Under the pieces are notes generated by a model that had not been told where the DNA came from, ran no database searches, and saw only the letters and a program-made list of their open reading frames with translations. From contig JAKFXY010000026.1 of assembly GCA_021731165.1 (NCBI GenBank), positions 1 through 35,650 of the forward strand: a stretch of 35,650 nt of DNA. Direction: 5' to 3'. The translations under genes and the position numbers were made by a program. The stretch is from Acidobacteriota bacterium. Its GTDB lineage: Bacteria; Acidobacteriota; Vicinamibacteria; Vicinamibacterales; UBA2999. Shown here piece after piece: positions 4,669 through 35,650 of the stretch; position 1 is the stretch's first letter, and each line of letters starts with the position of its first letter.

Positions 4669-4669
4669 T

Positions 4670-15827: not shown

Positions 15828-16616
15828 TCACCTGGAGCCGGTGAATTCCCCGGACGCTCGAAGCAGCCGGGCCCGGCCCCCCTCGTCGTCATCACCGTCA
15901 TGATTGCCAATGCGGAAGGCGTTGACTCGTTGCGTGACATCCCGCACGGCAACGGCCAATCGATAGTCGTTCACCATGAACAGCGCGAACTTCCATGCGC
16001 TTGCCGGCGCGCGATCCGCCAGTTCACACCGCAAAGACGTCGGGCCCTCGAACTCGAATGCGCACTCGTCGAGGCCAGCCAGCACCCCGTCTCCAGTCGC
16101 CTTGGCGTACGCCTCCTTCAGTGTCCAGAGCTCGACAAATCGCGCCCCCCGCTCGGCACCGCCGCAGCGTTCGACATCCGCCACCTCCGACGGCCTGAAG
16201 TGACGACGCGCGATGTCCAGATTGTCCACGCCGCCACTGACACGCTCGACGTCGATGCCCACGTCCACATCGTGTGCCACGACACACGCGACCAGCCCCC
16301 TGGCATGACTGAGATTGAACGACAGGCGCCGCCGGTCGTCATCGTGGTCGGCCAGAGCTGGCTTGCCGTTTCGTCCAGGGACGAACCGCCAGTCTCGAGC
16401 CTGGCGCTGCCCGTGCACCGAGAGCCGCCGCCGAAGCAGCAGATGCGCCGCCGCGAAATCGCGCCGGTCATGAGCGAACGCCAACCGGGCGTGCCGTGCC
16501 CGCTCGTCTTCCGACAGCAGGCCCAACGTGCGCTCGAGCGCGCGCTCATCGAGTTCTCGAGTCAGCCAATAGGCGATGTGCACCTCTGTATTCACGTCCG
16601 CCACGGCCGTCGTCAC
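15828..16616 (-). CDS. Sfp-type 4'-phosphopantetheinyl transferase
   Basis: The enzyme transfers 4'-phosphopantetheine from CoA to the carrier-domain serines of NRPS, here most plausibly Ser619, Ser1700 and Ser2796 of the NRPS encoded from 26575. The 262-residue length fits Sfp-type rather than AcpS-type. The three family motifs are visible: FNLSHARGLVACVV (about 100-113), the Mg-binding GIDVERV (120-126) and FVELWTLKEAYAKATGDG (160-177). GRNGKPAL precedes them, as usual. Its start overlaps the stop of the JmjC-type gene (ATGA), so the two are co-translated. The C-terminal 40 residues (FRIGNHDGDDDEGGRARLL...) are not family-like and may be a dispensable tail. Confidence 0.93.
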   Translation of the reverse strand: MTTAVADVNTEVHIAYWLTRELDERALERTLGLLSEDERARHARLAFAHDRRDFAAAHLLLRRRLSVHGQRQARDWRFVPGRNGKPALADHDDDRRRLSFNLSHARGLVACVVAHDVDVGIDVERVSGGVDNLDIARRHFRPSEVADVERCGGAERGARFVELWTLKEAYAKATGDGVLAGLDECAFEFEGPTSLRCELADRAPASAWKFALFMVNDYRLAVAVRDVTQRVNAFRIGNHDGDDDEGGRARLLRASGEFTGSR

Positions 16617-17593
16617 ATCCTCGCCGGCTGCCCAGCACCGTCAAGCAGGCTCGCTATGGCAGATTCCAATTCCCCGGTCTGAACGGCCTCGGGCTCCTCT
16701 TGAAACACACGACGCTCGGCCCTGAGCAATGCATCCAGGTCCAAATTGGCCGAGAGCGCGGCAATGCGCTCTTTGACCTGGATGACGATCGCCTCCAAGC
16801 CACCGCTCCCGCTCTCCAGCGACCACGGAACACGTCGCCGGAACTCGATGTCCTCCTCGGCGACTCGCTTGAGCGCCTTGGCGAGGAGCTCGGAAAACGT
16901 CAACGGGACGACACTGATGGTCAGATGCATCGATTCACGTTCGGTGCAGAACGCCTGATGCATCGCTCCACGCGGCAGGTAGAGCACGTCCCCCGGGGAC
17001 AACGCCATGGCCTCGGCTGGTGCGGTCGGCACGAAGCGATCCGGATCCCAATCGGTTTCCATCAGGGGCAGCTCCGTCTTGCCCGAGTACTCGTTGAAGA
17101 TCCGCCACTCCTTCCTCCCGATGCACTGGACGATGAACACATCGGTGATGTCGAAGTGCGGGGGGAAGCCGGTCTTGGTTGGCGGTGTCAGGTACAGATT
17201 GATCTGGGCTTGCGCCGTGAAATCCCGCCGCACCGCTTCCACGAAGCGATGGAGCCGCGCGTCGAACTTGTCCAGATCGCGAACGCGTATGGTGGACCCG
17301 CGTCGAAAACTGTCGGCGATCACGGCGAGGCCCGACTTGCCGCTCTTTCTCTGCAGGTCAACAAGCCTTCTCAATTGGCCATCGTCAAAGACATCGACGT
17401 TGCCCATGGGAATCCCTTCCCATTTGAACAACGACTCGAGCCTGGAGAGGCTATGGAGCGCGTCGAGCTGTTCCAGGTCGAGCGCGGCCTCGAATCGTGC
17501 CGCCTTCCTCTCCCGGACCTCGCTGTTGAACGCCTCGATAGTCATCCCGCCGATCAGGCTCCGGCTCAACAGCTGAGCATCGAAGACCGCCAT
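16613..17593 (-). CDS. JmjC/cupin-type Fe(II)/2-oxoglutarate oxygenase
   Basis: The 326-residue product belongs to the Cupin_4/JmjC fold group. The metal-binding facial triad is visible as His146-x-Asp148 in PPHFDITDVFIVQCIGRKEW and distal His212 in LSPGDVLYLPRGAMHQA. Relatives hydroxylate ribosomal protein residues or amino acids; NRPS-cluster members can act as tailoring hydroxylases. The start at ATG 17593 is decided by a near-perfect ribosome binding site, AAGGAGGT, six bases upstream; a longer frame to 17701 lacks one. It is co-translated with the PPTase gene and diverges from the mbtH-fhuDBC operon, so involvement in the NRPS pathway is likely. Substrate is unknown; beta-hydroxylation of an amino acid such as Asn is a hypothesis. 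Confidence 0.85.
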   Translation of the reverse strand: MAVFDAQLLSRSLIGGMTIEAFNSEVRERKAARFEAALDLEQLDALHSLSRLESLFKWEGIPMGNVDVFDDGQLRRLVDLQRKSGKSGLAVIADSFRRGSTIRVRDLDKFDARLHRFVEAVRRDFTAQAQINLYLTPPTKTGFPPHFDITDVFIVQCIGRKEWRIFNEYSGKTELPLMETDWDPDRFVPTAPAEAMALSPGDVLYLPRGAMHQAFCTERESMHLTISVVPLTFSELLAKALKRVAEEDIEFRRRVPWSLESGSGGLEAIVIQVKERIAALSANLDLDALLRAERRVFQEEPEAVQTGELESAIASLLDGAGQPARM

Positions 17594-17852
17594 GCGCCAC
17601 CTCCTTGCGGTTGCCCCGTCGGGCCGAACGAACACCCGGGTTGGGCTTCCATTATGAGGCCTGCGTCGAAGGCCGACAGCTTTGACGACACGCTCGGGCA
17701 CGATCCTGCCCGCCGCGTCCGCGTGCCATGCGCCACGCTACGCTCGGGCAATCCACGCGTCCTATCGATCCAGGCGATGGGCCATGTATGCTCTATAACC
17801 GTGCGGGTGACGCCGTTGCCAAGACGACGTCGCCAGACTGGAGCCTGCTGCA
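17594..17852. promoter_or_regulatory. Divergent promoter region of the NRPS accessory operons
   Basis: These 259 bp separate two divergent operons (JmjC-PPTase, and mbtH-fhuDBC) and must hold both promoters. A TATAAC at 17794-17799 could be a -10 box for mbtH but has no matching -35 hexamer. I looked for a Fur-box-like A/T-rich inverted repeat and found none. The AAGGAGGT of the JmjC gene lies at its left end and GGAG (17840-17843) before mbtH at its right end. Confidence 0.4.
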
Positions 17853-18095
17853 ATGACGAACCCGTTCGAGGATGAGAATGGTGACTACCTCGTGCTGGTC
17901 AACGAGGAGGGTCAGTACTCGTTATGGCCCGCATTTCTCGACATCCCGCTCGGCTGGAAGGCCACCGGCCCACGGGGCGATCGCAAGATCTGCCTCGCGT
18001 GGATTGACGAGAACTGGACCGACATGCGTCCGCTCAGCCTCGTCCGCCAGATGGAAGAGGATGCACGCGTTCGAAAATCTCAGCGGGACCGCTAG
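17853..18095 (+). CDS. MbtH-like NRPS accessory protein
   Basis: MbtH-like proteins bind NRPS adenylation domains and are often needed for their folding and activity. The 80-residue product is a full-length match to the family pattern: MTNPFEDENGDYLVLVNEEG at the start, QYSLWPAFLDIPLGWKAT with the conserved SLWP and PxGW tryptophans, then CLAWIDENWTDMRPLSL. The start ATG follows GGAG at 17840-17843. It is the first gene of the plus-strand operon with the siderophore-type transporter genes and lies 8.5 kb from the NRPS gene, its presumed partner. Presence of an MbtH gene in an iron-uptake operon is typical of siderophore clusters. Confidence 0.97.
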   Translation: MTNPFEDENGDYLVLVNEEGQYSLWPAFLDIPLGWKATGPRGDRKICLAWIDENWTDMRPLSLVRQMEEDARVRKSQRDR

Positions 18096-18137
18096 AAGCG
18101 TCCACGACACGCCCGCCGACGATTCTCCGTGAGTCCC

Positions 18138-19007
18138 ATGCTCGATCGTCGCCAGTTCGTCGCAGGTCTCGCCATGCTGCCGTGTCTTCCACGGCCCGCG
18201 GCGGCATCCACCGGCTTGCGCGTTGCGGCTTTGGACTGGGCGCTGGCGGAAACGATGATGGCGCTCGGACACACGCCCATCGCGATCGTCGCCGCGAGCG
18301 ACTGGAACCGATTCGTGGTCGAGCCGCGCTTGCCATCCGGCATCGCCGATCTCGGGCTGCAACCCGAGATCAACTTCGAACTGCTCGCCTCTCTCAAGCC
18401 CGACCTGATCCTCACCTCTCCATTTGTTCAGGACCTGGAGCCAGTGGTCCAACGGATTGCCGAGACCCTGCGGCTGTCGATCTTCGAGAAAGGGACCGTT
18501 CCCCTTGCGCGACCGCGTGCCTTGGCCAGAGTACTGGGCGAACGCCTCGGCCACGCCGAGGCGGCTCGAAGTCTTCTCGTCACCGCCGAGCACACGTTCG
18601 ACATGTACCGCGAGCGCATCACGGCGATCGCTCCTCCACCCGTCGTCCTCGTCAACTTCATCGACGCCAGGCATGTCCGGGTCTACGGAGGGGCTGGACT
18701 CTACCAAAACGTCCTCGATCGCATCGGTCTGGTGAACGCGTGGGCCGGCACGACCAACTATTGGGGATACTCCACCGTTGGCATCGAGACACTCGCCACC
18801 GACAGAGATCTGCGGTTGATCGCCTTCGAGCCGATTCCGGCTGACACGCGCCCGACGCTTCAGCGAAGCCCGCTGTGGTCTCGGCTGCCCTTCGTCCGGG
18901 CGGGACACGTCTCCGTCCTGCCGTCCGTCCTGATGTTCGGCGCCATGCCGTCCGCGCTGCGGTTCGCGCGGCTCCTCGTCGAGCACCTCGAACGCCTGCC
19001 ACGGTGA
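18138..19007 (+). CDS. fhuD: Iron-siderophore ABC transporter, periplasmic binding protein (FhuD-like)
   Basis: This protein should capture the ferric siderophore in the periplasm and hand it to FhuB. The N-terminus MLDRRQFVAGLAMLPCLPRPAAA carries a twin-arginine-type motif (DRRQFVAG) and hydrophobic stretch, cleaved near AAA. The mature part is a class III (TroA/FhuD-like) binding protein: LRVAALDWALAETMMALGHTPIAIVAASDW, then DLGLQPEINFELLASLKPDLIL, which is the usual family core. I chose ATG 18138 because it puts the RR motif in place; a GTG at 18129 is also possible. It follows mbtH by 42 bp, and its stop overlaps the permease start by 4 bp (GTGA). Specificity cannot be read from the sequence; a cobalamin or haem role is less likely given the context. 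Confidence 0.88.
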   Translation: MLDRRQFVAGLAMLPCLPRPAAASTGLRVAALDWALAETMMALGHTPIAIVAASDWNRFVVEPRLPSGIADLGLQPEINFELLASLKPDLILTSPFVQDLEPVVQRIAETLRLSIFEKGTVPLARPRALARVLGERLGHAEAARSLLVTAEHTFDMYRERITAIAPPPVVLVNFIDARHVRVYGGAGLYQNVLDRIGLVNAWAGTTNYWGYSTVGIETLATDRDLRLIAFEPIPADTRPTLQRSPLWSRLPFVRAGHVSVLPSVLMFGAMPSALRFARLLVEHLERLPR

Positions 19008-20998
19008 ACGTCGTCCACGCGCGTCATGGTCCGCCCGTCCTGTCCCTCGGGCTAGGCATCCTTGCGTTGGCGGCGGTGACCCTCCTGCTCGCGCGTCCCG
19101 TGTCGCACGTGCTGTCCGGTCCGGCCGCGCCCGCTGGATACGACGTCGAACGGATGATCCTGGTATACGCAACCTTGCCGCGCCTTGCGATCGCTCTCCT
19201 GTGCGGTGCCGGACTCGCCGCCTCAGGAGCCATTCTCCAGCAGGTCCTCAGGAATCCCCTCGCCTCGCCAACGACGCTCGGCATCGACGCCGGCGCACGG
19301 CTCGCCATCACGATGGCGACACTCTTCACGCCGTCGCTGCTTGGACTCGGCCGTGACATGGTGGCGCTGCTGGGCAGCGCCGCCTCGACGCTGCTCGTGT
19401 TCATACTCGTTCGGCGCCGTGGATTCTCGGCGCTCTCGATCATCCTGGCCGGCCTCGTCGTCAGCCTCTACTGTGGCGCACTGTCGGCCCTCCTCGTGCT
19501 CGTCAAGGACCGCGTGCTCGCGAGCCTGTTCATCTGGGGCAGCGGCTCACTCAGTCAGCAGAGCTGGGAGCCGAGTACGGCCCTGGCCTGGCGGCTGGGG
19601 ATCGTGGCGTTGCCGCTCCTCTTCCTCCTGCGTCCGCTGTCGCTCCTCGATCTCGGCGACGACAGCGTCCGCTCCCTCGGCCTATCCGTCACCCGGCTGC
19701 GCCTGACAGCCATCGCCATCGCCGCCGCACTCTCCGCATTCGTCACGAGTGCCGTCGGCGTCATCGGCTTCATCGGGCTCGTCGCGCCGATCATCGCGCG
19801 ACTCTCGGGCGCGCGGCGGTTCGGCGAGCGCCTCTTGTGGTCAACGATCATCGGTGCGCTGTTGCTCCTCCTGACCGACGCGACGCTGCAGATTCTCGCC
19901 GGTGTGTCTTCCGAGTTCGTGCCCACCGGCGCCGTCACGGCCGTGCTCGGATCTCCGCTCCTCCTCCTCCTCCTGCCGAGGCTGAACACCGCCGCGCCGC
20001 CGACGTCGTTCGCACCTGCGGGACGTGGGACGGCGACGACCCTGCCGCGCGTGCCTGCGCTGGCCGCGGTGGCGGTCTTTGTGCTGCTGGTCACTCTCAC
20101 CGTCCTCGTGGGCCGTAGTCCAACCGGAGCGTGGCAGATCGTCTCGATCGATCAATGGGACCAGGTGATGATCTGGCGATTGCCACGAATCGTGGCAGCC
20201 GCGGCGGCCGGCGCGCTGCTGGGCGTGGCCGGCCTCATCCTCCAGCGGTTGACCAACAACGAAATGGCGAGCCCGGAGGTACTCGGCGTAAGCGCGGGTG
20301 CGATCCTTGCGGTCGCGGTGTCCCTCTTCATGTTCGGGAGCCTCGCGCCCGTGAGCGAGAGTGTCGTGGCCGCGGTCGGCGGTGTCGTCGTCCTCGCGGC
20401 CATCCTTGCCTTCGGCAGCCGCTCCAGCTTCGCACCCGAGCGGGTGTTGCTGGCGGGCATCGCACTCAACGCGCTCATTGACGCCGTCGTCGGCATCATG
20501 TCGGCGACCGGAGACCCGCGTGCGATTCTCCTTCTTGGCTGGATGAGTGGATCGACAGGCGGCACGACAGCGGGCGATGCGGCGCAGGCGGGCATGGCGG
20601 CCGCGGTCCTCGTCGCGGTGAGCCTCCTCGCCGTCCGCTGGCTCGCCGTCCTGCCTCTCGGCGGGCCGCAGGCACGGGCACTTGGCGTCCCGCTCGCGCG
20701 CTCGCGCTTCCTGCTGCTGCTCCTGGCCGCGGTATTGACGGCGGCCGCGACACCCGTGATCGGCCCCTTGACGTTCGTCGGCCTCATGGCTCCGCACATC
20801 GTGCTCGCCATGGGAGTCAGACAGCCATTGCCTGCGCTCCTGGGCGCGGCGGCCGCCGGCGCCGGCGTGATGGCGGTGGCAGACTGGCTCGCGCGCACGG
20901 CGGCCTTCCCTCTTCAGTTGCCAACCGGCCTCGTCGCCGCGATGGTTGGAGCGCCCTTTCTGATGGTGCTCCTCAATCGCCGGAGCACATTCCCATGA
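19004..20998 (+). CDS. fhuB: Fused double permease of Fe-siderophore ABC transporter (FhuB-like)
   Basis: The 664-residue inner-membrane protein contains two FecCD-family permease halves in one chain, as in E. coli FhuB (660 residues), whereas most iron-siderophore systems use two separate subunits. The first half includes LPRLAIALLCGAGLAASGAILQQVLRNPLASPTTLGID and VGVIGFIGLVAPIIARL; the second repeats WRLPRIVAAAAAGALLGVAGLILQRLTNNEMASPEVLGVSAGA and TPVIGPLTFVGLMAPHIV. About 18-20 hydrophobic segments are evident. The GTG start at 19004 overlaps the fhuD stop (GTGA); a longer frame starts inside fhuD and is rejected. The stop overlaps the fhuC start (ATGA), so D, B and C are tightly coupled. 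Confidence 0.93.
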   Translation: MNVVHARHGPPVLSLGLGILALAAVTLLLARPVSHVLSGPAAPAGYDVERMILVYATLPRLAIALLCGAGLAASGAILQQVLRNPLASPTTLGIDAGARLAITMATLFTPSLLGLGRDMVALLGSAASTLLVFILVRRRGFSALSIILAGLVVSLYCGALSALLVLVKDRVLASLFIWGSGSLSQQSWEPSTALAWRLGIVALPLLFLLRPLSLLDLGDDSVRSLGLSVTRLRLTAIAIAAALSAFVTSAVGVIGFIGLVAPIIARLSGARRFGERLLWSTIIGALLLLLTDATLQILAGVSSEFVPTGAVTAVLGSPLLLLLLPRLNTAAPPTSFAPAGRGTATTLPRVPALAAVAVFVLLVTLTVLVGRSPTGAWQIVSIDQWDQVMIWRLPRIVAAAAAGALLGVAGLILQRLTNNEMASPEVLGVSAGAILAVAVSLFMFGSLAPVSESVVAAVGGVVVLAAILAFGSRSSFAPERVLLAGIALNALIDAVVGIMSATGDPRAILLLGWMSGSTGGTTAGDAAQAGMAAAVLVAVSLLAVRWLAVLPLGGPQARALGVPLARSRFLLLLLAAVLTAAATPVIGPLTFVGLMAPHIVLAMGVRQPLPALLGAAAAGAGVMAVADWLARTAAFPLQLPTGLVAAMVGAPFLMVLLNRRSTFP

Positions 20999-21798
20999 TT
21001 GCTGAATCAGAAGGTCACGTCATGGCGCTCGAGGGTGTCACCGTCGAGGTGTCCGGCAATATTCTGCTCGAGCCATTGACCATGGCGTTTCCTGACAGCG
21101 GGATCGTGGGGCTGGTCGGCCAGAACGGGTCCGGGAAATCCACGCTGCTGAGAGTGCTTTCGCGCCAACTGGCGCCGACGCACGGCACGATCCGGTTCGG
21201 TGGCAAGCCACTGAAGTCCTGGGGTGAGCGCGACTTCGCCCGCAAGGTTGCCTACCTGCCGCAACACACCCCGCTGGCCGCCGGCCTGAAGGTCCGTGAG
21301 CTCGTCGCACTTGGCCGCTATCCGTGGCACGGCGCGCTCGGCCTCTTCCGGAGTGTCGATCGGGAGAAGGTGGACGAGGCCCTGACGCTCACGTCAACCG
21401 ACGTCTTCGCCGACCGCCTCGTTGACACGCTCTCCGGCGGTGAGCGGCAACGCGTCTGGCTCGCCATGCTCATCGCGCAGGACGCCAGGCTGCTGCTGCT
21501 CGACGAACCGATCTCGGCCCTCGACGTCGCCCACCAACTCGAGGTCTTGGCGCTCGTGCGCCGTCTCAGCCAGGACAAGGGCATCGCCGTCGTGGTCGTC
21601 ATCCACGAGATCAACCTGGCGGCGCGCTTCTGCGACGAGATCGTCGCCCTCAAGAGCGGGCGGCTCGTCGCTCATGGCCCACCCGACGAGTTCATGACGG
21701 CCAGGCGGCTCGAAGAGATCTACGACGTCAACATGGGCGTCTTTCCACATCCCGATACTGGCGAATCCATCGCCTTCGTCCGGACGCGGGATCGCTGA
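20995..21798 (+). CDS. fhuC: Fe-siderophore ABC transporter ATPase (FhuC-like)
   Basis: This cytosolic ATPase powers import through FhuB. The 267 residues hold a complete ABC domain: Walker A GQNGSGKST (42-50), Q-loop in AYLPQHTPLAAGLKVRELVALGRYPWHG (the ALGRYPW segment is typical of FecE/FhuC/BtuD ATPases), signature LSGGERQR (about 145-152), Walker B LLLLDEPISALD and the switch histidine in VVVIHEIN. The start overlaps the fhuB stop by 4 bp. An internal ATG (residue 10) would remove a non-conserved leader but leaves the domain intact. It converges on the Rieske oxygenase gene with a 12-bp gap. No TonB-dependent outer-membrane receptor is in the window. Confidence 0.95.
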   Translation: MIAESEGHVMALEGVTVEVSGNILLEPLTMAFPDSGIVGLVGQNGSGKSTLLRVLSRQLAPTHGTIRFGGKPLKSWGERDFARKVAYLPQHTPLAAGLKVRELVALGRYPWHGALGLFRSVDREKVDEALTLTSTDVFADRLVDTLSGGERQRVWLAMLIAQDARLLLLDEPISALDVAHQLEVLALVRRLSQDKGIAVVVVIHEINLAARFCDEIVALKSGRLVAHGPPDEFMTARRLEEIYDVNMGVFPHPDTGESIAFVRTRDR

Positions 21799-21810
21799 GC
21801 AGGCCGATCG

Positions 21811-23022
21811 CTAGAGGGGAACGCCAATCGCCCTGGCGATGTGGCGGTGCAGGGACTGGAGCGCAAGCTCGTTGCGACCGTAGACAACCGTGAAGCCCGC
21901 GGGCGCACTGACGAGGTTCGCATAGCCATCGACGGCGACGCGGTAGTCTTCCCGCGTAACGTCACTCTCCGCGTCGTCCTGGGCAAACTCGCCGGCACGG
22001 TCTCCATCCGCACGAACGCCGCGCAAGGCGTAGACCTCAATGCGGCAGGACATCGTGCCTGGCGTCTGGCCTGGAAAGATTCTGAACATCCGCACGAAGG
22101 CACCACCGGGCCCGCCCGATCCGACGACAACAACGGTATTGGGGAAGAGAAAGTGGACCCCGCCATAGTCGGCTTCCGGCCATTCGCTTTCGGGCAACCC
22201 GACCAGTGCCTTGACGCGTCTGTCCGGAAAATTGATCCGCCAGTGCGGCCCGAAATCATCGAACACGGCGACATTGCCATAGTGGCTGACACCGATCGTG
22301 GAGGCATGCAATGTGGCGAAGTGGTAGCCCTCGCCGTATGTGTCGAGGGCACATTTCCAGTTGCAGTCAGCGGCGAGCGAGCTCGATCTGATCGGCGCCG
22401 CGTCAGCCAGCTCGAGCTGCGCCAGCTCGGGAGCGAATGCGCCAAGGTACGCCGGAATGTCGAGTTCGTCCGACCCCGCCGCCGCCCGCACGAAGACGAT
22501 GCCGTTCCACTCCGCCACGGGCACCTGAATGAGATTGCGCCGGCTCATATCGATGCCCTCGAAGCCCTGCCGGCCCGGCACCCCGACAAGAGAGCCATCG
22601 AGCTCGAAGGTCCAGGCGTGGAACGGGCACGTCATCCGGCCACGACGCTCGCAGGTCCCATCCGCGCCGGCGCGGACGAGCTTCGTGCCGCGATGCGTGC
22701 ACATGTTGAGGAAGGCACGAAGGACGCCGTCCCTACCCCGCACAATGACGATGGACTGTCCGAACTCCTCGAACAGCAAGCTGTCGCCCGGCCTCGGGAC
22801 AGCCCGTGACAGGCCGGCAACCAGGGGGACCTTGAGGAAGATCTCGCGTCTCTCCAGCTCCGCTCGCGCGGGATCCGTGTAGGCGGCCGGATCGTTCTCG
22901 AGGGGGCCCGACGCGAAATCGGTCGTCCCGCCTGCCGCGACATGCGCCACCATTCGGCGTTGGATGGCCCGCGCGACTCGCCGGCGCCGTTCGGCGCTAT
23001 CGGCCGGTGTGATGTCGTTCAT
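21811..23022 (-). CDS. Rieske non-haem iron oxygenase, alpha subunit type
   Basis: The 403-residue product has a Rieske [2Fe-2S] domain (about 60-180) with ligands Cys108-x-His110 and Cys132-x2-His135, and a catalytic SRPBCC-type domain (about 200-400) with mononuclear iron ligands His234 and His239 in DTYGEGYHFATLHAST. The spacing between the two Rieske ligand pairs is 21 residues, longer than the usual 15-17, and includes an extra Cys124. Such enzymes hydroxylate, dehydrogenate or cyclise using electrons from a separate reductase, none of which is encoded nearby. ATG 23022 is chosen because AAGGA lies six bases upstream; an in-frame ATG at 23043 and a frame reaching 24360 lack that support. 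It diverges from the P450 pair and is a likely tailoring enzyme of the NRPS product. Confidence 0.9.
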   Translation of the reverse strand: MNDITPADSAERRRRVARAIQRRMVAHVAAGGTTDFASGPLENDPAAYTDPARAELERREIFLKVPLVAGLSRAVPRPGDSLLFEEFGQSIVIVRGRDGVLRAFLNMCTHRGTKLVRAGADGTCERRGRMTCPFHAWTFELDGSLVGVPGRQGFEGIDMSRRNLIQVPVAEWNGIVFVRAAAGSDELDIPAYLGAFAPELAQLELADAAPIRSSSLAADCNWKCALDTYGEGYHFATLHASTIGVSHYGNVAVFDDFGPHWRINFPDRRVKALVGLPESEWPEADYGGVHFLFPNTVVVVGSGGPGGAFVRMFRIFPGQTPGTMSCRIEVYALRGVRADGDRAGEFAQDDAESDVTREDYRVAVDGYANLVSAPAGFTVVYGRNELALQSLHRHIARAIGVPL

Positions 23023-23133
23023 GAACTGTCCTTCTGCCGTCATGACGAGGGACTCATGCGGGTGGGTCCAGAAAACTATATCGTTGTTCGCGCGCCGGCC
23101 CGGATTTCGCCAGAGCGCGTGGTCGGATCCACA

Positions 23134-24381: not shown

Positions 24382-24390
24382 GGAACCTGA

Positions 24391-26511: not shown

Positions 26512-26574
26512 GCTCCTCCGCATTGTGGGAGGCATGAAATACTACCGTGACGGGCCTTTGGGCGGGGGACGGAG

Positions 26575-29500
26575 ATGGACGAGAGCGAGCCGCTCCTTGC
26601 GGCACCGGCTACGGACGAGCCGACAGGCAGAGGCGCCGACGTCCCGAGCGACGCGGTGCGCGCTCGCTCCGTGCCGCCGCACTCATCTCGGGTTCAGCCG
26701 TCACAGGAGCGCCGCCAGTTCGGGCACGACTTCGACCTCACAGCCGCACGCGTTCCCGAGACGACGCTCGTCGGCTTCTTCGAGCGACAGGTCGCGCGAA
26801 CGCCAACGAGCCTCGCGCTCGTCACTGACCACGAAGCACTGACTTACGCCGCGCTCGACGCACGCGCGAACCAACTCGCCTGGAGGCTCATTGCCGACGG
26901 TATCGGACCGGAGGATCTCGTCGCGATCTATCTGGACCCTTCGCCGGACATGCTCGTCGCGCTCCTCGCCGCTCTCAAGGCCGGCGCCGCGTACGTGCCG
27001 CTGGACACGAGGCATCCGGTCCAGCGCGTGGCCTTCATACTCGACGACACCACGCCCAGGCGGATCCTGACGAGCATCGACCTCAGCGCGCGTCTTCCGA
27101 ATGTCGCGCGCCGCCTCGAGCTCGTCCTTGACGCCCCGGACGTTGCCACGGAGCTCGCCGGCTTCACGGCATCCGCTCCGACCGACGCCGATCGCGTCAT
27201 GCCGCTGCGGCCCCAACACCTCGCATACGTCATGTGCACGTCGGGCAGCACCGGAACGCCCAAGGGTGTCGCCGTCACGAACGCCGGAGTCAGCAACGCC
27301 ATTCATGCACGTGTCGCGTTCTACGGCGAGGAGATCAAGGCGCTCGGTCTTTGGTCATCCATATCGTTCGATATCGCCGTCGCGCAGATCTTCTGGGCCT
27401 GGTCATGTGGGGCGGCGTTGGTTCTTCCCCCGGCTCGCGCGGAAGACACTCCCGACGCCCGGTTCGAGCGGGAACTGCAGCAGGGCATCACGCATCTGAT
27501 GCTGCCGGCAGCGCTCTACGCCCATCTCCTGGCGGCGCGGCACGGGCGCGACGCGCACGCACTGCGCGCGGTCGTTGTCGGAGGGAATGCGCTGCAGGCG
27601 CAGACGGTCAGACAGCATGGTGACATCTTCGGAGACGTCAGCCTGTTCAACGAATATGGCGTGACGGAGGCGTCCATCTGGAGCACGGTCTGGCGGTGCG
27701 GCGCCGGCTCTGACGGCGACACCTCGCCGATTGGCGCGCCAATCGCGAACACGCGCGTCTACGTGCTCGACGCGTCGCTGCGGCCGTGTCCCGTGGGAGT
27801 CGTGGGCGAGTTGTACATCGGCGGCGCTGGTCTCGCGCGCGGCTACTGGGCCAGGCCGGGGCTGACGGCTGAGCGATTCGTCGCCAGTCCCTTCGGGTGC
27901 GAGCCGGGTGAGCGGCTCTATCGTACGGGCGACCTGGGGGCCACTCGTGAAGATGGCGCGCTGATCTTCCATGGCCGCGTCGATCAGCAAGTCAAGATCC
28001 GCGGCTTCCGTATCGAGCCCGGCGAAATCGAGACGGCCCTGCTCCGCGAACCCGCGCTCGCCCAGGCGGCGGTCGTCGCGCGCGACGACGTCGCCGACGA
28101 TCCGCGCCTCGTGGCCTATCTCGTCCCTCACAGGGACGCGACGCATGCGTCTGCACCGCTCGGTCTCCACTCTCTGCGCCAGCGCCTCGCCGCGTCTCTG
28201 CCGGACTACATGGTGCCGGCGGCCTTCGTCGTGCTCGACGCGTTGCCGCTCACCTCCAACGGCAAGCTCGATCGCCAGGCGCTGCCCGCGCCTCAAGGTT
28301 CGGGCCTGGCTGCCGACTATGTCGCGCCGGGCACGCCCGACGAGATCGTGCTGTGTGAGCTTGTCGCGGCATTGCTCGGGATTACGCGGGCAGGCCTCGC
28401 CGATCACTTCTTTCATCTGGGCGGCCACTCGTTGCTGGCCACGCGCCTGGCCGCGCGGATCCGCGTCCGGTTCGGCCGCGAGCTGCCGATCCGCACGATC
28501 TTCGATCGACCCGTGCTCGGCGACCTTGCCAAGGCACTGGACGCGCTCCCCAAGGCTGGTCCACTGTTGGTGCCGCAGCCACGGCCCGCCGTGCTGCCGA
28601 TGTCATTCGCGCAGACACGGCTTTGGTTCCTGCACAAGCTCGAGGGCGCGAGCCCGGCGTATCACATCCCCGTGGCCGTTCGCCTGGCCGGCCCACTTGA
28701 CAGGGCGGCCCTCGCCCTGGCGATCGAGGATGTGTGCCGCCGCCATGAGAGCCTCCGCACCCTGCTGGTTGAAGGCGACATGGGACCGGAGCAGCGCATC
28801 CTCCCGCCGTCCGCGGTCTCCGAGCCACTGCCAACGGTCACAAGCAGCATCCACACCATCGAGGACGACCTCGCGGCGGCGTCAGCGCGCGGATTTGACC
28901 TCACCACTGAACCCCCGTTGCGCGCCACGCTGTTCCGACTCGGCCCTGACGATCACGCGCTCCTGCTGCTCCTTCATCACAGCGCCGCGGACGGCTGGTC
29001 GATCGCGCCGCTCCTCGACGATCTGGCCAGCGCCTATGCCGCGAGAGTGATGGGCGCCGCGCCCGCTTTCCCCGCGCTGCCGATTCAATACGCCGACTAC
29101 ACCCTCTGGCAGCGCGCGCTGCTCGGCCGCGAGGACGACGGGGCCAGTCCACTCGCCCGTCAGATCGCGTACTGGACGAGGCAGCTTGCCGGCGTGCCCG
29201 TCGAATTGCCGCTGCCCACGGACCGGTCTCGACCCCAGACCCCAAGCTTCGCCGGTGGTGTCGTCGAGATCGCGTTGCAGCCGGCGTTGCACGCGCAGCT
29301 CCAGGACATGGCTCGTGCCCACGGCGCCACACTCTTCATGCTCCTGCAGGCGGCGCTTGCAGCGCTGCTGACCAGGCTTGGCGCCGGCACGGACATCGCG
29401 ATTGGCTCCCCTATCGCCGGCCGGACCGACACCGCGCTCGATCGCCTCGTCGGCTTCTTCGTGAACACGTTGGTGCTGCGCACCGACACCAGCGGCAACC

Positions 29501-32500
29501 CGACGTTTCTCGAGTTGCTCGCACGCGCCCGCGCCACCTGCCTGGAGGCGTACTCTCATCAGGATCTCCCTTTCGAACGCGTGGTCGAGCTGCTCGACCC
29601 GCCTCGCGTGGTTGGCCGGCAGCCGTTGTTCCAGACCATGCTCGTCCTTCAGCCCACGACCCAGCCGCAACTGGCGCTGCCGGGTCTGCGGGCAGTCGCG
29701 CTCCCGCCTCGCGACCGCACCACCAAGTTCGATCTGGTGTTCACCTTCACGGAGACGCAGGACGCGGCCGGCCGGACCGCCGGACTGCTTGGTGAGCTCG
29801 AGTACAGCATCGACCTCTTCGATCGCCGTTCCGCCTCGCGCCTCGCCGAGCGGCTCACCCGTCTGCTGGAACAGGTTGCGGCTGATCCCTCCGTGCCCGT
29901 GCATCGACTCGAGATCCTGGCCCCCCTCGAGCGCCAACGACTCGTCCACGATTCTGGCGCCACCGCCCAGCGCGGCCCCGAGGCGACACTCGCCGACCGA
30001 TTCGAGCGGCAGGTCGCACAGGCGCCGAACCGCGAAGCCTTGATCGTCGAAGACGCGGCGCTGACCTACGCCGTGCTCGACGCGCGTGCCAATCAGCTCG
30101 CCTGGCGGCTCCTCGCCGAGGGCATCGGACCCGAGGACTTCGTCGCAATCTGCCTGGAGCGCTCGTTCGAGATGGTCGTCGCTATTCTGGCGACTCTCAA
30201 AACCGGCGCCGCCTATGTCCCGCTCGACCCAGACACACCTGCCGCGCGTCTCGCGTTCATGCTGGCCGACGCTCGACCCCGGCGGCTCCTGACGACAACC
30301 AGGCTCGCCGCGCGGTTTCCGGTCGCGACACCAGCCCTCCGCCTCGACGACCCGGCGGTCGTGTCGGATCTCGCCCGCCTCCCTGTCGCCGCACCGGGCG
30401 ACGCCGATCGCCCCACGGCCCTGCAACCGGCACACCCCGCGTACCTGATCTACACCTCGGGCAGCACGGGCCGTCCCAAAGGTGTCGTGATCACTCAGCG
30501 AAATGTCGTCCGGCTGTTCGACGTGACGAGGCGTTCGTTCCGCTTCGACGAGAACGACACCTGGACGATGTTTCACTCGTACGGTTTCGACTTCTCGGTG
30601 TGGGAGCTCTGGGGCGCATTGCTCCACGGTGGGCGTCTGGTCATCGTGCCCAAGGACGTCGCCAGGTCCGCCGAAGCGTTTCGAGCCCTTCTCGTCCGCC
30701 ACGCCGTAACGGTGCTCAACCAAACACCTTCGGCCTTCTACCGTTTGACACAGGCAGACGAGGAGGCGGGCGAAGCGGCGGAGAGTCTTGCGCTCCGCAC
30801 GGTCGTCTTCGGCGGTGAGGCACTCGATCTTCGCCGATTGGATCGCTGGTACACGCGTCATGCCGAGAGTCGTCCACGGCTCGTGAACATGTATGGCATT
30901 ACGGAGACCACCGTCCACGTCACCTACATGCCGCTCGACCGCGAGCTTTCGGCCTCGAGCGCCGGCAGCCCGATCGGCGTCGGGCTGTCCGACCTGCGTG
31001 TGTACGTGCTCGACGCGGGGTTGCAGCCGTGCCCGGTTGGCGTCTTCGGAGAGGTGTATGTGGCCGGCGCCGGTCTCGCGCGCGGTTACTGGGACCGGCC
31101 CGGGCTGACCGCCGAACGGTTTGTCGCCAATCCTTTTGCGAACGAGCCGGGCGAGCGGCTTTATCGCTCGGGCGATCTTGCCGCGTGGCGGCACGATGGC
31201 TCTCTAACCTTTCGTGGCCGCGCCGACCAGCAGGTCAAAATCCGCGGCTTCCGGATCGAACCCGGCGAGATCGAAACCGTCTTGCTGCGCGAGCCCGCCA
31301 TCGCCCAGACGGCAGTCGTCGCCCGCGAGGATCTGACTGGCGACCAGAGCCTCGTTGCCTACCTCGTGCCCCGGACGGATCCATCAGGAGAGGCTGGAGC
31401 CATCGATCTCCTGGCCCTGCGCGCGCGCCTCGCCGCGGTATTACCGGACTACATGGTGCCGGCGGCGTTCGTCGTCCTGGACGCGCTGCCGCTGACGCCC
31501 AACGGGAAGCTGGATCGCGCGGCGTTGCCCGCACCTGAAGGGTCCGGCCTGGCCACCGGCTATGTGGCACCGGCGACGCCAGACGAGATCGTGCTCTGCG
31601 AGCTGGTTGCCTCGCTGCTCGGCGTGGCGCGAGTCGGGCTCGCCGATCACTTCTTCCATGTCGGCGGCCACTCATTGTTGGCCACCCGCCTGGCCGCGCA
31701 GATCCGGCATCGACTCGGGCGTGAGCTGCCGATCCGCGCGATCTTCGACACGCCGGTGCTGGGGGATCTGGCGCGCGCGCTCCGCACGCTCCCGAAGGCC
31801 GGCCAGCCGCTGGGGCCGCAACCCAGGCCCGCGGTGCTGCCGCTGTCCTTCGCGCAAGCACGATTGTGGTTTCTCCACCAGCTCGAAGGCGCGAGCTCGC
31901 TGTACCAAGTCCCGGTCGCGGTCCAACTGACCGGCGCGCTCGACGTCCCGGCGCTGGCCCGAGCGCTGGACGATGTGCGGGCGCGCCACGAGAGTTTGCG
32001 CACGCTGCTCGTCGACGACGACGATGAGCCGGAGCAGCGCGTGCTGCCAGCCGACTCGCTCCCCACGCTGCTGCAGATTGTGACGAGTACTGCCGGTGCC
32101 GTGGACGACGAGCTCGAAGTGGCAGCCGCGCGCGGCTTCGATCTCGCGAAGGAAGTCCCATTTCGCGCCACGTTGTTCCAGCTTGGGCCCGACGAGTACG
32201 CGCTGCTGCTGCTCCTCCATCACAGCGCCGCGGATGGCTGGTCGATCGCGCCGCTGCTCGACGACCTCGCGACCGCCTATGCCGCGCGGGTGACGGGGAC
32301 GGCGCCGGCCTTCCCGCCGCTGCCGGTTCAGTACGCCGACTACACCCTCTGGCAGCGTGCCTTGCTCGGCCGCGAAGAGGACCCGGCCAGTCCGATCGCC
32401 ACGCAGATCGCCTACTGGACCACGCAGCTCGCCGCGCTGCCCGTGGAGCTGGCGCTGCCCACGGATCGGCCGCGGCCGCGGACGCCGAGCTATGCGGGCG

Positions 32501-35500
32501 GCGTCGTCCAGATTGCACTGCCGCCCGCGTTGCAGACGCAGCTGCGGGAACTGGCCCGCGCGCACGGCGCCACGCTCTTCATGCTGCTGCAGGCGGCGGT
32601 TGCGACGTTGCTCGCCAAGCACGGCGCGGGCACGGACATTCCCATTGGCGCCCCCATTGCCGGCCGGACCGAAGCCGCACTCGATTCGCTCGTCGGCTTC
32701 TTCGTCAATACGCTCGTGCTGCGCACCGACACCAGCGGCGACCCGACGTTTCTCGAGCTGCTCGCGCGCGCCCGCGCCACTTGTCTCGAGGCCTATGCGC
32801 GCCAGGATCTGCCGTTCGAGCGCCTGGTCGAGCTGCTCGACCCGCCGCGCGCGGTTGGCCGCCAGCCGCTCTTCCAGACCATGCTCGTCCTGCAGCCGAC
32901 GGCGCTGCCGGAACTGCGGCTCCCGGAGGTCACCGCGCGTCCGCTCGCGCCCATCCTCCGCACCACCAAGTTCGACCTGTCGTTCACCTTCGCCGAGGGG
33001 GTGGCGTCACCCGGCCAGCCTGCCGGCCTCACGGGCGCGCTCGAGTACAGCGCCGATCTCTTCGATCGCGCCTCCGCCGCGCGCCTCGCCGCACGCCTGA
33101 CGCGCCTGCTGGACCAGATTGCCGCCGACCCGTCGATGCCGCTGCATCGGCTCGACCTCCTCACCCCCGACGAGCGCCGCCAGGTCGTGCACGACTTCAA
33201 CGCCACGGCCGCGCCGCTCCCCACCGCGACGCTGATCGATCGGTTCGAGCGCCAGGTCGCACAAACGCCGGACCAGCCCGCGCTCGTCGCGGCCGATGGC
33301 GGACGGCTCACCTACGCCGCGCTGAACGCACGCGCCAACCAGCTCGCGTGGCGGCTGCTCGCCGACGGCATCGGGCCCGAAGACCGCGTCGCCATCTGTC
33401 TCGAGCGCTCGCCCGCGCTGATCGTGGCCGTCCTGGCGACACTCAAGGCCGGCGCGGCGTTTGTGCCGCTCGATCCCGACGCGCCTGTCGCCCGCCTCGC
33501 GTTCTTGCTCGCGGATGCCACGCCCGCGCGGCTCCTGACGACCAGCGGCCTCGCCGCGCGGCTCCCCGACGTCGCGTCCGGCCTCGCCATCTGCCTCGAT
33601 GCGCCGGCGGTCATGACGGATCTCGCGGGCTTCCCGGTCGTGTCCCCGACCGACGCCGATCGCGTCACGCCGCTGCGACCGCAGCATCCGGCGTACGTCC
33701 TCTACACCTCGGGCAGCACGGGGCAGCCGAAGGGCGTCGCGATCGCGCAGCAGAGCCTCGCCCACTACATCGCGCTCGTCGGCGACCGCCTCGGGCCCCA
33801 CGCGGCGCGTATGCCGCTCTTCACGTCGATGGCCTTCGACCTGACGCTGACAACGCTCTTCGCGCCGCTCTGCAGCGGGGGCCAGATCGAGATCGTCGCC
33901 ACCACCCATCCCGCCGAGGCCCTCGCCGCAGTCTTTGGACCTGGCGCGACGGCGACCGCCGTCAAGCTCACGCCCTCGCACCTGGCGCTCCTGGCGACGC
34001 AGCCTGTCACCCCCTCCGCCATCGCCATCGCCATTGTCGGCGGCGAAGCACTCACCAGTGCCCAGGTGGCGACGCTCGTCGCGCACTGCCCCGCGATTCG
34101 CATCGTCAACGAGTACGGCCCGACGGAGACCACCGTCGGGGCCACGGCTGGCGCGGTCACCACGGAGGATCTCCACATCGGGCGGCCCTATCCCAACACG
34201 CGCGTGTATGTGCTCGACGCGGCGCTGCAGCCGTGTCCGGTGGGCGTGACGGGCGAGTTGTACCTCGCGGGCGTGGGCCTGGCCCGTGGCTACTGGAACC
34301 GGCCGGCGCTGACGGCCGATCGCTTCGTCGCCCATCCGTTCGCGCTGGGGTCGGGCGAGCGTCTCTATCGCAGCGGTGACCGCGCCGCGTGGCGCGCCGA
34401 CGGCACGCTCCTCTTCCATGGCCGCGGCGACCAACAGGTCAAGATCCGCGGCTTCCGGATCGAGCCCGGCGAAATCGAAGCCGCGCTCCTCCGCGAGCCC
34501 GCCATCGCGCAAGCGGCGGTGCTCGCCCGCGTGGACCACGCCGGCGACCCGCGCCTCGTCGCGTACCTCGTGCCGCACGCGGCGGCGCGCGCCGCGGACG
34601 CCTCAGCAGAGGCAGCGGCCAGGGTGACCCGTGCCCGTCAGGCCGAGCACGCAGGGCCGGGCACGCACCCACCGGACGCGACCCCGGCGCTCGATCTCCA
34701 GGCCATCCGCACACGCCTCACCGCGCAGCTGCCGGCGTACATGGTGCCGGCGGCGTTCGTGGTCCTCGACGCGCTGCCGCTGACGCCCCACGGCAAGCTC
34801 GATCGCGCGGCGCTCCCCGCCCCCGAAGGCGCGGGCCTCGCCGCGGGCTACGTGGCGCCGACCACGCCCGAGGAGATCGTGCTTTGCGAGGTGGTGGCCG
34901 CACTCCTCGGCCTTGCACGCGTCGGCGTCGCCGACAATTTCTTCCATCTCGGCGGCCACTCACTGCTCGCCACGCGTCTGGCCGCGCAGGTCCGCGCCCG
35001 CCTCGGCCGCGAGCTGCCCCTCCGCACGATCTTCGACACGCCGGTGATCGGAGAGCTGGCGCAGGCCCTTCGAGCCTCCAACCCGCTCGTCGACGAGGCA
35101 CCACCGCTCGTCGCCGATCCCGAGGCGGCGTTCGCGCCGTTTCCCCTGACGCCTGTGCAGGAGGCCTACTGGCTCGGACGCCAGCGCCTGGTCGCCCTGA
35201 GCGACGTGGCCTGTCACGTCTATGTCGAGCTGCGCCTGCGCCAGCTCGATGTCGCCCGCCTCACGGACGCGTGGCGCGCGGTCATCGATCGGCATCCCAT
35301 GTTGCGCGCGGTCATGGCGCCCGACGGCACCCAGCGCCTCCTCGCGGAGGTGCCGCCCTTCGTCATTCCGTGGAGCGACCACCGCGACGCCGCCGACGCC
35401 GAGGCCGCCGCCGGTGCGGTCCGCGACGCGATGTCGCATCAAGTGCTGCCGTACGATCGCTGGCCGCTCTTCGACATCCGCGTCACGCGGGTCGCGGCGA

Positions 35501-35650
35501 CAGACTGGCGGCTGCACCTCAGTCTCGATGCGCTCCTCCTCGACGGCGAGAGCAACAACCGATTGCTCCAGGAAGTCTTCGACCGGTACCACGGGCGAAC
35601 CGTGCCCGAGTCAGCGCCCACCACCGCGCTGACCTTCCGCGACTACGTGC
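26575..35650 (+). CDS. Multimodular nonribosomal peptide synthetase (3' end outside window)
   Basis: A single frame without stops runs from ATG 26575 to the window edge: at least 3025 codons. GGGGGA at 26564-26569 provides the ribosome binding site. Domain order is A1-T1 / C1-A2-T2 / C2-A3-T3 / Cy. There is no N-terminal condensation domain, so module 1 starts the chain. Carrier serines are Ser619, Ser1700 and Ser2796, each in GGHSLLATRLA. C1 and C2 have intact HHSAADG (801-807 and 1882-1888). The fourth condensation-type domain begins FPLTPVQEAYWLGR and carries D2985-x4-D2990-x2-S2993, the heterocyclization signature. No epimerization or methyltransferase domain is seen. Pocket residues predict X-Thr-Asn. 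The 49-residue N-terminal leader is low in complexity. MbtH and PPTase genes upstream are the expected partners. Confidence 0.97.
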   Translation, partial: MDESEPLLAAPATDEPTGRGADVPSDAVRARSVPPHSSRVQPSQERRQFGHDFDLTAARVPETTLVGFFERQVARTPTSLALVTDHEALTYAALDARANQLAWRLIADGIGPEDLVAIYLDPSPDMLVALLAALKAGAAYVPLDTRHPVQRVAFILDDTTPRRILTSIDLSARLPNVARRLELVLDAPDVATELAGFTASAPTDADRVMPLRPQHLAYVMCTSGSTGTPKGVAVTNAGVSNAIHARVAFYGEEIKALGLWSSISFDIAVAQIFWAWSCGAALVLPPARAEDTPDARFERELQQGITHLMLPAALYAHLLAARHGRDAHALRAVVVGGNALQAQTVRQHGDIFGDVSLFNEYGVTEASIWSTVWRCGAGSDGDTSPIGAPIANTRVYVLDASLRPCPVGVVGELYIGGAGLARGYWARPGLTAERFVASPFGCEPGERLYRTGDLGATREDGALIFHGRVDQQVKIRGFRIEPGEIETALLREPALAQAAVVARDDVADDPRLVAYLVPHRDATHASAPLGLHSLRQRLAASLPDYMVPAAFVVLDALPLTSNGKLDRQALPAPQGSGLAADYVAPGTPDEIVLCELVAALLGITRAGLADHFFHLGGHSLLATRLAARIRVRFGRELPIRTIFDRPVLGDLAKALDALPKAGPLLVPQPRPAVLPMSFAQTRLWFLHKLEGASPAYHIPVAVRLAGPLDRAALALAIEDVCRRHESLRTLLVEGDMGPEQRILPPSAVSEPLPTVTSSIHTIEDDLAAASARGFDLTTEPPLRATLFRLGPDDHALLLLLHHSAADGWSIAPLLDDLASAYAARVMGAAPAFPALPIQYADYTLWQRALLGREDDGASPLARQIAYWTRQLAGVPVELPLPTDRSRPQTPSFAGGVVEIALQPALHAQLQDMARAHGATLFMLLQAALAALLTRLGAGTDIAIGSPIAGRTDTALDRLVGFFVNTLVLRTDTSGNPTFLELLARARATCLEAYSHQDLPFERVVELLDPPRVVGRQPLFQTMLVLQPTTQPQLALPGLRAVALPPRDRTTKFDLVFTFTETQDAAGRTAGLLGELEYSIDLFDRRSASRLAERLTRLLEQVAADPSVPVHRLEILAPLERQRLVHDSGATAQRGPEATLADRFERQVAQAPNREALIVEDAALTYAVLDARANQLAWRLLAEGIGPEDFVAICLERSFEMVVAILATLKTGAAYVPLDPDTPAARLAFMLADARPRRLLTTTRLAARFPVATPALRLDDPAVVSDLARLPVAAPGDADRPTALQPAHPAYLIYTSGSTGRPKGVVITQRNVVRLFDVTRRSFRFDENDTWTMFHSYGFDFSVWELWGALLHGGRLVIVPKDVARSAEAFRALLVRHAVTVLNQTPSAFYRLTQADEEAGEAAESLALRTVVFGGEALDLRRLDRWYTRHAESRPRLVNMYGITETTVHVTYMPLDRELSASSAGSPIGVGLSDLRVYVLDAGLQPCPVGVFGEVYVAGAGLARGYWDRPGLTAERFVANPFANEPGERLYRSGDLAAWRHDGSLTFRGRADQQVKIRGFRIEPGEIETVLLREPAIAQTAVVAREDLTGDQSLVAYLVPRTDPSGEAGAIDLLALRARLAAVLPDYMVPAAFVVLDALPLTPNGKLDRAALPAPEGSGLATGYVAPATPDEIVLCELVASLLGVARVGLADHFFHVGGHSLLATRLAAQIRHRLGRELPIRAIFDTPVLGDLARALRTLPKAGQPLGPQPRPAVLPLSFAQARLWFLHQLEGASSLYQVPVAVQLTGALDVPALARALDDVRARHESLRTLLVDDDDEPEQRVLPADSLPTLLQIVTSTAGAVDDELEVAAARGFDLAKEVPFRATLFQLGPDEYALLLLLHHSAADGWSIAPLLDDLATAYAARVTGTAPAFPPLPVQYADYTLWQRALLGREEDPASPIATQIAYWTTQLAALPVELALPTDRPRPRTPSYAGGVVQIALPPALQTQLRELARAHGATLFMLLQAAVATLLAKHGAGTDIPIGAPIAGRTEAALDSLVGFFVNTLVLRTDTSGDPTFLELLARARATCLEAYARQDLPFERLVELLDPPRAVGRQPLFQTMLVLQPTALPELRLPEVTARPLAPILRTTKFDLSFTFAEGVASPGQPAGLTGALEYSADLFDRASAARLAARLTRLLDQIAADPSMPLHRLDLLTPDERRQVVHDFNATAAPLPTATLIDRFERQVAQTPDQPALVAADGGRLTYAALNARANQLAWRLLADGIGPEDRVAICLERSPALIVAVLATLKAGAAFVPLDPDAPVARLAFLLADATPARLLTTSGLAARLPDVASGLAICLDAPAVMTDLAGFPVVSPTDADRVTPLRPQHPAYVLYTSGSTGQPKGVAIAQQSLAHYIALVGDRLGPHAARMPLFTSMAFDLTLTTLFAPLCSGGQIEIVATTHPAEALAAVFGPGATATAVKLTPSHLALLATQPVTPSAIAIAIVGGEALTSAQVATLVAHCPAIRIVNEYGPTETTVGATAGAVTTEDLHIGRPYPNTRVYVLDAALQPCPVGVTGELYLAGVGLARGYWNRPALTADRFVAHPFALGSGERLYRSGDRAAWRADGTLLFHGRGDQQVKIRGFRIEPGEIEAALLREPAIAQAAVLARVDHAGDPRLVAYLVPHAAARAADASAEAAARVTRARQAEHAGPGTHPPDATPALDLQAIRTRLTAQLPAYMVPAAFVVLDALPLTPHGKLDRAALPAPEGAGLAAGYVAPTTPEEIVLCEVVAALLGLARVGVADNFFHLGGHSLLATRLAAQVRARLGRELPLRTIFDTPVIGELAQALRASNPLVDEAPPLVADPEAAFAPFPLTPVQEAYWLGRQRLVALSDVACHVYVELRLRQLDVARLTDAWRAVIDRHPMLRAVMAPDGTQRLLAEVPPFVIPWSDHRDAADAEAAAGAVRDAMSHQVLPYDRWPLFDIRVTRVAATDWRLHLSLDALLLDGESNNRLLQEVFDRYHGRTVPESAPTTALTFRDYV
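26755..28540 (+). other. NRPS module 1: A1-T1 (initiation)
   Basis: A1 spans about residues 61-575 and T1 about 583-655. Core motifs: LTYAALDARANQLAWRL, the P-loop-like CTSGSTGTPKG, GELYIGGAGLARGYWARP, GERLYRTGDL, and NGKLDRQALP with the catalytic lysine. The A5 region reads NEYGVTEASIW, not the usual YGPTET. Aligned by eye to GrsA-Phe, the pocket residues are D-I-A-M-V-G-E-I-W-K. I do not recognise this as a known code and leave the substrate open. T1 Ser619 is at 28429-28431. Confidence 0.85.
28594..31770 (+). other. NRPS module 2: C1-A2-T2, predicted Thr
   Basis: C1 (about residues 674-1118) begins LPMSFAQTRLWFLHKLEG and has HHSAADGWS, typical of an L-accepting condensation domain. A2 (about 1137-1650) has IYTSGSTGRPKG, and its pocket residues, aligned by eye to GrsA-Phe, are D-F-W-N-V-G-M-V-H-K. 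This differs at one position from the well-known threonine code DFWNIGMVHK, so Thr is a confident prediction. T2 Ser1700 is at 31672-31674. Confidence 0.88.
31837..35060 (+). other. NRPS module 3: C2-A3-T3, predicted Asn
   Basis: C2 (about residues 1755-2199) is highly similar to C1 and has an intact HHSAADGWS. A3 (about 2218-2750) has LYTSGSTGQPKG and NEYGPTETTVG; pocket residues are D-L-T-K-I-G-E-V-G-K, the asparagine-type code (aspartate codes usually have His where this has Glu). An Ala/Arg-rich insert of roughly 15 net residues lies near 34579-34686, between two late A-domain motifs. T3 Ser2796 is at 34960-34962. Confidence 0.86.
35131..35650 (+). other. NRPS heterocyclization (Cy) domain, N-terminal part
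   Basis: About 173 residues are visible. The opening FPLTPVQEAYWLGR is the Cy1-type motif found in PchE, HMWP2 and related siderophore synthetases. HPMLRAV follows, and the active-site segment LSLDALLLDGES fits D-x4-D-x2-S (Asp at 35527 and 35542, Ser at 35551) where condensation domains have HHxxxDG. The following module, outside the window, should load Cys, Ser or Thr and cyclise it onto the Asn carbonyl. Confidence 0.88.

Follow-up and report, generated by a model that had tools for sequence, protein, structure and literature searches.

Nonribosomal peptide (NRP) metallophores such as pyochelin, yersiniabactin and those of the coelibactin type rely on heterocyclization (Cy) domains working with Cys-type adenylation (A) domains, on release by a thioesterase (TE) and on FecCD-type import. 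Genome mining detects the clusters for NRP metallophores through known chelator genes, and the handful of clusters devoid of such genes are possible new structural classes. According to a rule based on transporters, a nonribosomal peptide synthetase (NRPS) region that holds at least two of the families PF00593, PF01032 and PF01497 is assigned to this group, with a precision of 93% on 758 annotated NRPS regions; in seven of the eight false positives, the transporters were not conserved in homologous clusters (PMC12971057). The NRP-metallophore regions from Acidobacteriota are few (9/836 genomes with a hit; PMC12971057). The locus addressed here lies on a 35,650-bp contig (G000:C24), analysed in its entirety and called the window below, from the metagenome-assembled genome (MAG) G000 of a soil acidobacterium (3.0 Mb, 161 contigs). 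It is likely an NRP metallophore cluster, most likely for a siderophore, directing an eight-module thiazole/thiazoline peptide that would be reimported via FhuDBC.

The cluster begins at 15.8 kb with a divergent PPTase-JmjC pair and continues with an MbtH-FhuD-FhuB-FhuC operon, downstream of which are found a Rieske oxygenase, two cytochromes P450, a CmcJ/NvfI-type 2-oxoglutarate (2OG) oxygenase and a 3,025-residue NRPS running off the contig. The genes for activation and import are:

15828–16616, minus strand: Sfp/HetI-type 4'-phosphopantetheinyl transferase (PPTase; PF01648, 65.9 bits)
17853–18095, plus strand: MbtH-like protein (PF03621, 90.2 bits)
18129–19007, plus strand: FhuD-type Tat-exported ferric-siderophore binding protein (PF01497, 74.7 bits, cut-off 27.5)
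19004–20998, plus strand: FhuB, fused double FecCD permease (PF01032 in two stretches, 429 bits; FhuB model, 722 bits)
20995–21798, plus strand: FhuC ATPase (PF00005, 111.5 bits), overlapping FhuB by 4 nt

Two of the three families of the transporter rule, PF01032 and PF01497, are thus present with scores above their cut-offs, and PF00593 is absent from the cluster. The fused FhuB, the FhuC and the Tat signal of FhuD recall the FhuDBC system of Escherichia coli; here, these genes are encoded with an NRPS. Among solved structures, the ferric-hydroxamate FhuD of E. coli comes closest to the binding protein (E=7e-45), and FhuB models are the best match of the permease. Besides FhuD, the MAG contains a single other Peripla_BP_2 match, and MbtH is present in one copy. 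4'-Phosphopantetheinyl transferases activate the carrier (T) domains of NRPSs. A first-pass annotation of the window had named the Sfp-type PPTase, MbtH, FhuD, fused FhuB, FhuC and the oxygenases, and profile matches bear out every name. It had also described an overlapping operon, which is exact for FhuD/FhuB (joined by a 4-nt GTGA stop/start overlap) and FhuB/FhuC, whereas MbtH and FhuD, 33 nt apart, are only tightly spaced. Its NRPS of at least three modules ending in a Cy domain stands as well, with the order A-T-C-A-T-C-A-T-Cy (C, condensation domain). The remainder of this NRPS was located beyond the contig end, on C125, C123 and C36 of the same MAG:

26575–35650 (contig end), plus strand: 5' part of the NRPS, A1-T-C-A2(Thr)-T-C-A3(Asn-type)-T-Cy (Pfam and motifs)
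26752–28284, plus strand: A1 domain, loading module (code DIAMVGEIWK)
30001–31527, plus strand: A2 domain, Thr (code DFWNVGMVHK)
33232–34824, plus strand: A3 domain, Asn-type (code DLTKIGEVGK)
35122–35650, plus strand: N-terminal part of the Cy domain (motif DALLLDGES)
C125: NRPS part cut at both ends, A(Cys)-oxidase insert-T-C-A(Asn-type)-T-Cy (the insert matches Nitroreductase)
C123: NRPS part cut at both ends, A(Cys)-T-E-C-A (E, epimerase)
C36: NRPS part cut at its start, A-MT-T-E-C-A-T-TE (MT, methyltransferase), then an M29 aminopeptidase gene in 4-nt overlap

In total, the NRPS comprises about eight modules, with two Cy/Cys modules, a thiazoline-oxidase insert, two epimerases, a methyltransferase and a thioesterase. 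The Cy domain of the window would be linked to a Cys-activating A domain, Cys-type codes being found on C125 (....MSLIWK, partial and read by hand) and C123 (DLFNMSLIWK). C24, C125, C123 and C36 are the only contigs of the MAG that carry condensation domains. The last 127 bp of C24 and C125 are identical, and C123 and C36 have an exact 127-bp overlap; such ends are to be expected when a repeat interrupts an assembly made with k=127. Indeed, A3-T-Cy is duplicated (window 33590–35650 and C125 3637–5703, 96% DNA identity, 95% protein identity for the A domains), a recent internal duplication or gene conversion, which broke the assembly. Because C125 has a Cys-type A domain at its beginning and a Cy domain at its end, C24-C125-C123-C36 would be the sole linear order that uses all the pieces; the short stretch between each of the two Cy domains and its A domain is absent from the assembly. 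Both epimerase domains precede DCL-type condensation motifs, a coherent arrangement. In each of the two acidobacterial genera, the M29 aminopeptidase gene directly follows the last NRPS gene and overlaps it (C36 5539–6789 and G003:C44 3980–5227); tied in this way to a metallophore NRPS, the peptidase may process the product or release the metal.

The A-domain specificity codes were read by alignment. That of A1 found no match in a literature search; five of its ten positions, 239, 322 and 331 among them, agree with the nearest listed code, the His code DSALIAEVWK, which also accepts beta-hydroxy-His (PMC12283262), so that His is a best guess for its substrate rather than an assignment. The Asn-type code, which A3 and its copy on C125 have in common, is also compatible with beta-cyano-alanine (PMC12283262). 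Among the terminal modules, the code DFWNIGGIFK clusters with Thr domains. The code DASTIAAVCK is presumably aromatic, of the Tyr type. The predicted peptide would be X(His-like)-Thr-Asn-thiazole-Asn-thiazoline-(methylated D-aromatic, Tyr-type)-(Thr-like).

The conservation of the locus carries much of the assignment. In G003, a second genus of the same family (record JABFSA010000104.1, isolate S-RSF-IL-07), order and orientation are kept from MbtH to the NRPS, with identities of 88% (MbtH), 76% (FhuD), 70% (FhuB), 64% (FhuC), 64% (Rieske), 70% (P450a), 68% (P450b), 69% (CmcJ) and 59% (NRPS). The G003 NRPS has the same first-module codes and a Cy domain, and the C123/C36 half has its counterpart on a second G003 contig (59% over 3,276 residues), with the same TE followed by an M29 gene 61% identical to that of G000; the first epimerase is lacking and no PPTase was found near MbtH. 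Among 193 genomes of the class, only G000 and G003 harbour a close Rieske homologue. A scan of 85,000 species genomes revealed three further loci, all from alphaproteobacteria: Acuticoccus mangrovi, Aurantiacibacter xanthus and Rhodobacteraceae UBA6141. They encode the PPTase (33–38%), which adjoins MbtH in all three, MbtH (64–66%), FhuD, FhuB and FhuC (56–59%), Rieske (46–48%), P450a (54%), P450b (59–62%) and CmcJ (48–51%), together with NRPSs, in a gene order that differs from that of the acidobacterial pair; neither JmjC nor M29 was seen in them. A code of A1 type, DIAM[VI]GEI[WF]K, is shared by G003, Aurantiacibacter and Acuticoccus (DIAMIGEIFK in the latter two), the published Thr code DFWNIGMVHK is present in G003 and in the NRPS of UBA6141, and Acuticoccus has a Thr-like A-T-TE. 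As the alphaproteobacterial contigs stop before any Cy domain could be seen, the thiazole part is documented for the acidobacterial pair only. The transporter is therefore conserved in homologous NRPS clusters (G003 and the three alphaproteobacteria); its recurrence with the oxygenases and the NRPS across two phyla indicates that transporter and NRPS belong together, and makes a chance neighbourhood of the Fhu genes very unlikely. A common product core can also be expected from five species with the same gene set. The MbtH loci of G007, G029 and G058, which are from the same order, turned out to be unrelated clusters.

The oxygenases of the cluster are:

16613–17701 (start uncertain), minus strand: JmjC_2 oxygenase, NO66/MINA-like, putative beta-hydroxylase (PF08007, 90.6 bits)
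about 21811–23022, minus strand: Rieske non-haem iron oxygenase alpha subunit (PF00355 and PF00848)
23149–24381, plus strand: cytochrome P450 a, CYP101/P450cam-like (PF00067, 57.5 bits; CYP101J2, E=5e-101)
24391–25641, plus strand: cytochrome P450 b, CYP153-like (PF00067, 67.4 bits; CYP153A7, E=8e-112)
25681–26535, minus strand: CmcJ/NvfI-family Fe(II)/2OG oxygenase (NF041278, 271 bits, cut-off 80)

Comparison with sequences of solved structures clearly places these families, which are mostly catabolic (P450cam, CYP153, ring-hydroxylating oxygenases), and the enzymes look intact: both P450s retain the haem Cys motif, and the H-x-D...H iron-binding residues of the CmcJ-type protein, which matches the PDB entries of NvfI and of a 2OG dioxygenase, are invariant across the five relatives. 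No reductase or ferredoxin gene was found near the Rieske gene. The JmjC_2 gene, which overlaps the PPTase gene by 4 nt, matches NO66 (E=7e-26), MINA (E=2.5e-18) and YcfD-type proteins (E=1e-7). Its proximity to the histidyl hydroxylases NO66 and MINA would fit a His starter, though no such gene was found in the related clusters (G003 and the three alphaproteobacteria).

In the pathway that we propose, PPTase and MbtH would support the NRPS spread over the four contigs. Synthesis would start with the A-T module, probably activating His, followed by the addition of Thr and an Asn-type residue. The two Cy/Cys modules would form one thiazole, by means of the inserted Nitroreductase-like oxidase, and one thiazoline, with the second Asn-type residue between them; a Tyr-type residue, methylated and epimerised, and then one resembling Thr would follow before the thioesterase frees the peptide. 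The Rieske enzyme, both P450s and CmcJ would hydroxylate the peptide or its building blocks, and could thereby supply the missing metal ligands. Once secreted and loaded with Fe(III), the chelator would cross the outer membrane through a TonB receptor encoded elsewhere, after which FhuD would bind it and FhuB/FhuC would import it. Trimming of the product or release of the metal may be the task of the M29 aminopeptidase, whose gene is co-transcribed. More broadly, we tentatively suggest, as a possibility that falls somewhat short of an even chance, a cross-phylum family of NRP metallophores in which the Rieske enzyme, the CYP101-like and CYP153-like P450s and CmcJ make a new chelating unit on an A1/Thr-containing peptide, in addition to thiazole/thiazoline nitrogen donors. 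If true, this unit would be a chelator class outside current detection rules.

Several observations weigh against the proposed siderophore pathway. No chelator-pathway gene (for 2,3-dihydroxybenzoate, salicylate, hydroxamate, beta-hydroxy-Asp/His, graminine, Dmaq or the pyoverdine chromophore) was found among the annotated cluster open reading frames, isochorismate-pathway genes not having been searched genome-wide; outside the cluster, PF13434 gave weak, partial matches only. No TonB receptor gene occurs in any of the five clusters within the sequence covered, and none could be linked to the cluster contigs of Acuticoccus and UBA6141. The Fur-box pattern has no match in the window, regulator binding sites being little known in this phylum; Fur-box and RirA-type scans upstream of genes gave nothing above shuffled sequences, and the acidobacterial pair has no common operator. 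Furthermore, with a completeness of 87% for the MAG and an NRPS scattered over four contigs, the module order is inferred. Finally, zinc, copper or lanthanide metallophores could look alike. The first-pass annotation had already pointed out that salicylate, 2,3-dihydroxybenzoate and ornithine N-hydroxylase genes as well as a TonB receptor are missing and that the other ligands are unexplained, which holds for the cluster, about 16 TonB-receptor matches being present in the genome of G000. Its proposal of a siderophore-type peptide gains support from the transporter rule, the conservation in five species and the Cy domains serving Cys-type A domains, one with an oxidase insert. Globally, the cluster very probably encodes a metallophore, and probably, with less assurance, a siderophore for iron. 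From the lack of any standard chelator gene, it follows that the iron-binding chemistry of the product is probably undescribed.

The alternative that survives best, although unlikely, is a metallophore for zinc, copper or a lanthanide with the same assembly and import. FecCD/Peripla_BP_2 systems also carry other metallophores, and the imidazole and thiazole nitrogen donors predicted here suit softer metals. In E. coli FhuD, Arg84 and Tyr106 are the hydroxamate contacts. The aligned positions are occupied by Gln/His and Val/Ser in all five relatives, a replacement that argues against a hydroxamate and makes another ligand likely as the cargo of FhuD. The lack of a Fur-like box points the same way, the transporter rule does not separate metals, for which regulators are needed (PMC12971057), and putative metallophore clusters are frequent in Acidobacteria that possess lanthanide enzymes (PMC10875860). 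Nevertheless, the similarity of the binding protein to the ferric-hydroxamate FhuD and of the permease to FhuB models favours iron, which is the commonest cargo of such clusters.

It is quite improbable that the product is a non-chelating bioactive peptide (an antibiotic or a signal) and that the Fhu genes are mere neighbours or serve import or immunity. Thiazole peptides are frequently antibiotics, standard chelator genes are absent, and the M29 peptidase could serve self-protection or maturation; yet in both phyla the Fhu genes stay next to the same oxygenases and the NRPS despite differing gene orders, and the cluster contains no recognisable gene for export, immunity or resistance. A mosaic, in which the NRPS of the window and the parts on C125, C123 and C36 come from different clusters and the eight-module product is wrong, would explain the lack of a read-level join, the mere 127-bp suffix shared by C24 and C125 and the missing Cy-to-A pieces, but it is very unlikely given that the MAG has no other condensation-domain contigs, that the domain logic permits one linear order and that both halves recur in G003, the first closing with Cy and the second with TE and M29.

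The alphaproteobacterial clusters show some features of their own. A conserved block with a TTGAATATTCAA-like palindrome is found in the P450a/Rieske intergenic region of all three (L045 14380–14560, L046 9960–10150, L047 12200–12380) and is possibly the operator of some regulator. In Acuticoccus mangrovi, genes for a PhyH-family 2OG oxygenase and a weakly matching methyltransferase (L078 13676–14926 and 15878–16669), unseen in the other clusters, lie between two NRPS genes. The cluster of Aurantiacibacter xanthus adjoins the conjugation genes traL and traK (L046 14904–17029) and may be carried by a plasmid or an integrative element; such a location, if true, would explain the patchy spread across phyla. 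Plasmid searches with CmcJ, Rieske and P450a gave top matches merely 40–47% identical, and the two annotated plasmid regions (one Rieske match, one P450a match) are catabolic-type loci without NRPS.

The left half of the contig carries ordinary genes, among them those for IMP dehydrogenase, YjeF, a class IV aminotransferase, an M4 protease, a sigma-54 activator and a pilin-like protein. The housekeeping genes at 2038–9259, which include glycine cleavage GcvP and GcvT, have no link to the cluster. Rfam and tRNA scans gave no matches.

By its general kind, the locus would belong to the NRP metallophores, and its new aspect may be an oxygenase cassette that builds chelating groups. It differs from pyochelin, yersiniabactin and coelibactin-type systems by its A1-T initiation, no salicylate starter gene being found in the window or in the cluster parts of C125, C123 and C36, and by its embedded oxidase leading to a thiazole, two P450s, Rieske enzyme and CmcJ. 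With beta-hydroxy-His/Asp lipopeptide siderophores such as corrugatin, it shares an A1 code near that of His, Asn-type codes and possible side-chain hydroxylases, but it has thiazol(in)es and no lipid starter domain, and G000 and G003 have no TauD-family hydroxylase. The known members of the CmcJ/NvfI family, in which the protein is placed by its NF041278 score and intact iron-binding residues, use cephamycin or meroterpenoid substrates, whereas here the gene adjoins a metallophore-type NRPS. P450b also resembles the solanimycin P450 SolI of Dickeya (404.6 bits); this pathway was rejected, as the NCBIfam scores are below the cut-offs (SolI 404.6 vs 850, SolG 1503 vs 2200), P450b is equally near CYP153 alkane hydroxylases and environmental P450s, and the sol cluster has polyketide synthase and MATE genes and no Fhu genes. 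Among chelator-less clusters, the case for the present one is unusually strong, as MbtH, the transporter and the oxygenases recur as one set beside an NRPS in five species that span two phyla, and its product is directly testable in two named strains, Acuticoccus mangrovi B2012 and Aurantiacibacter xanthus CCTCC AB 2015396.

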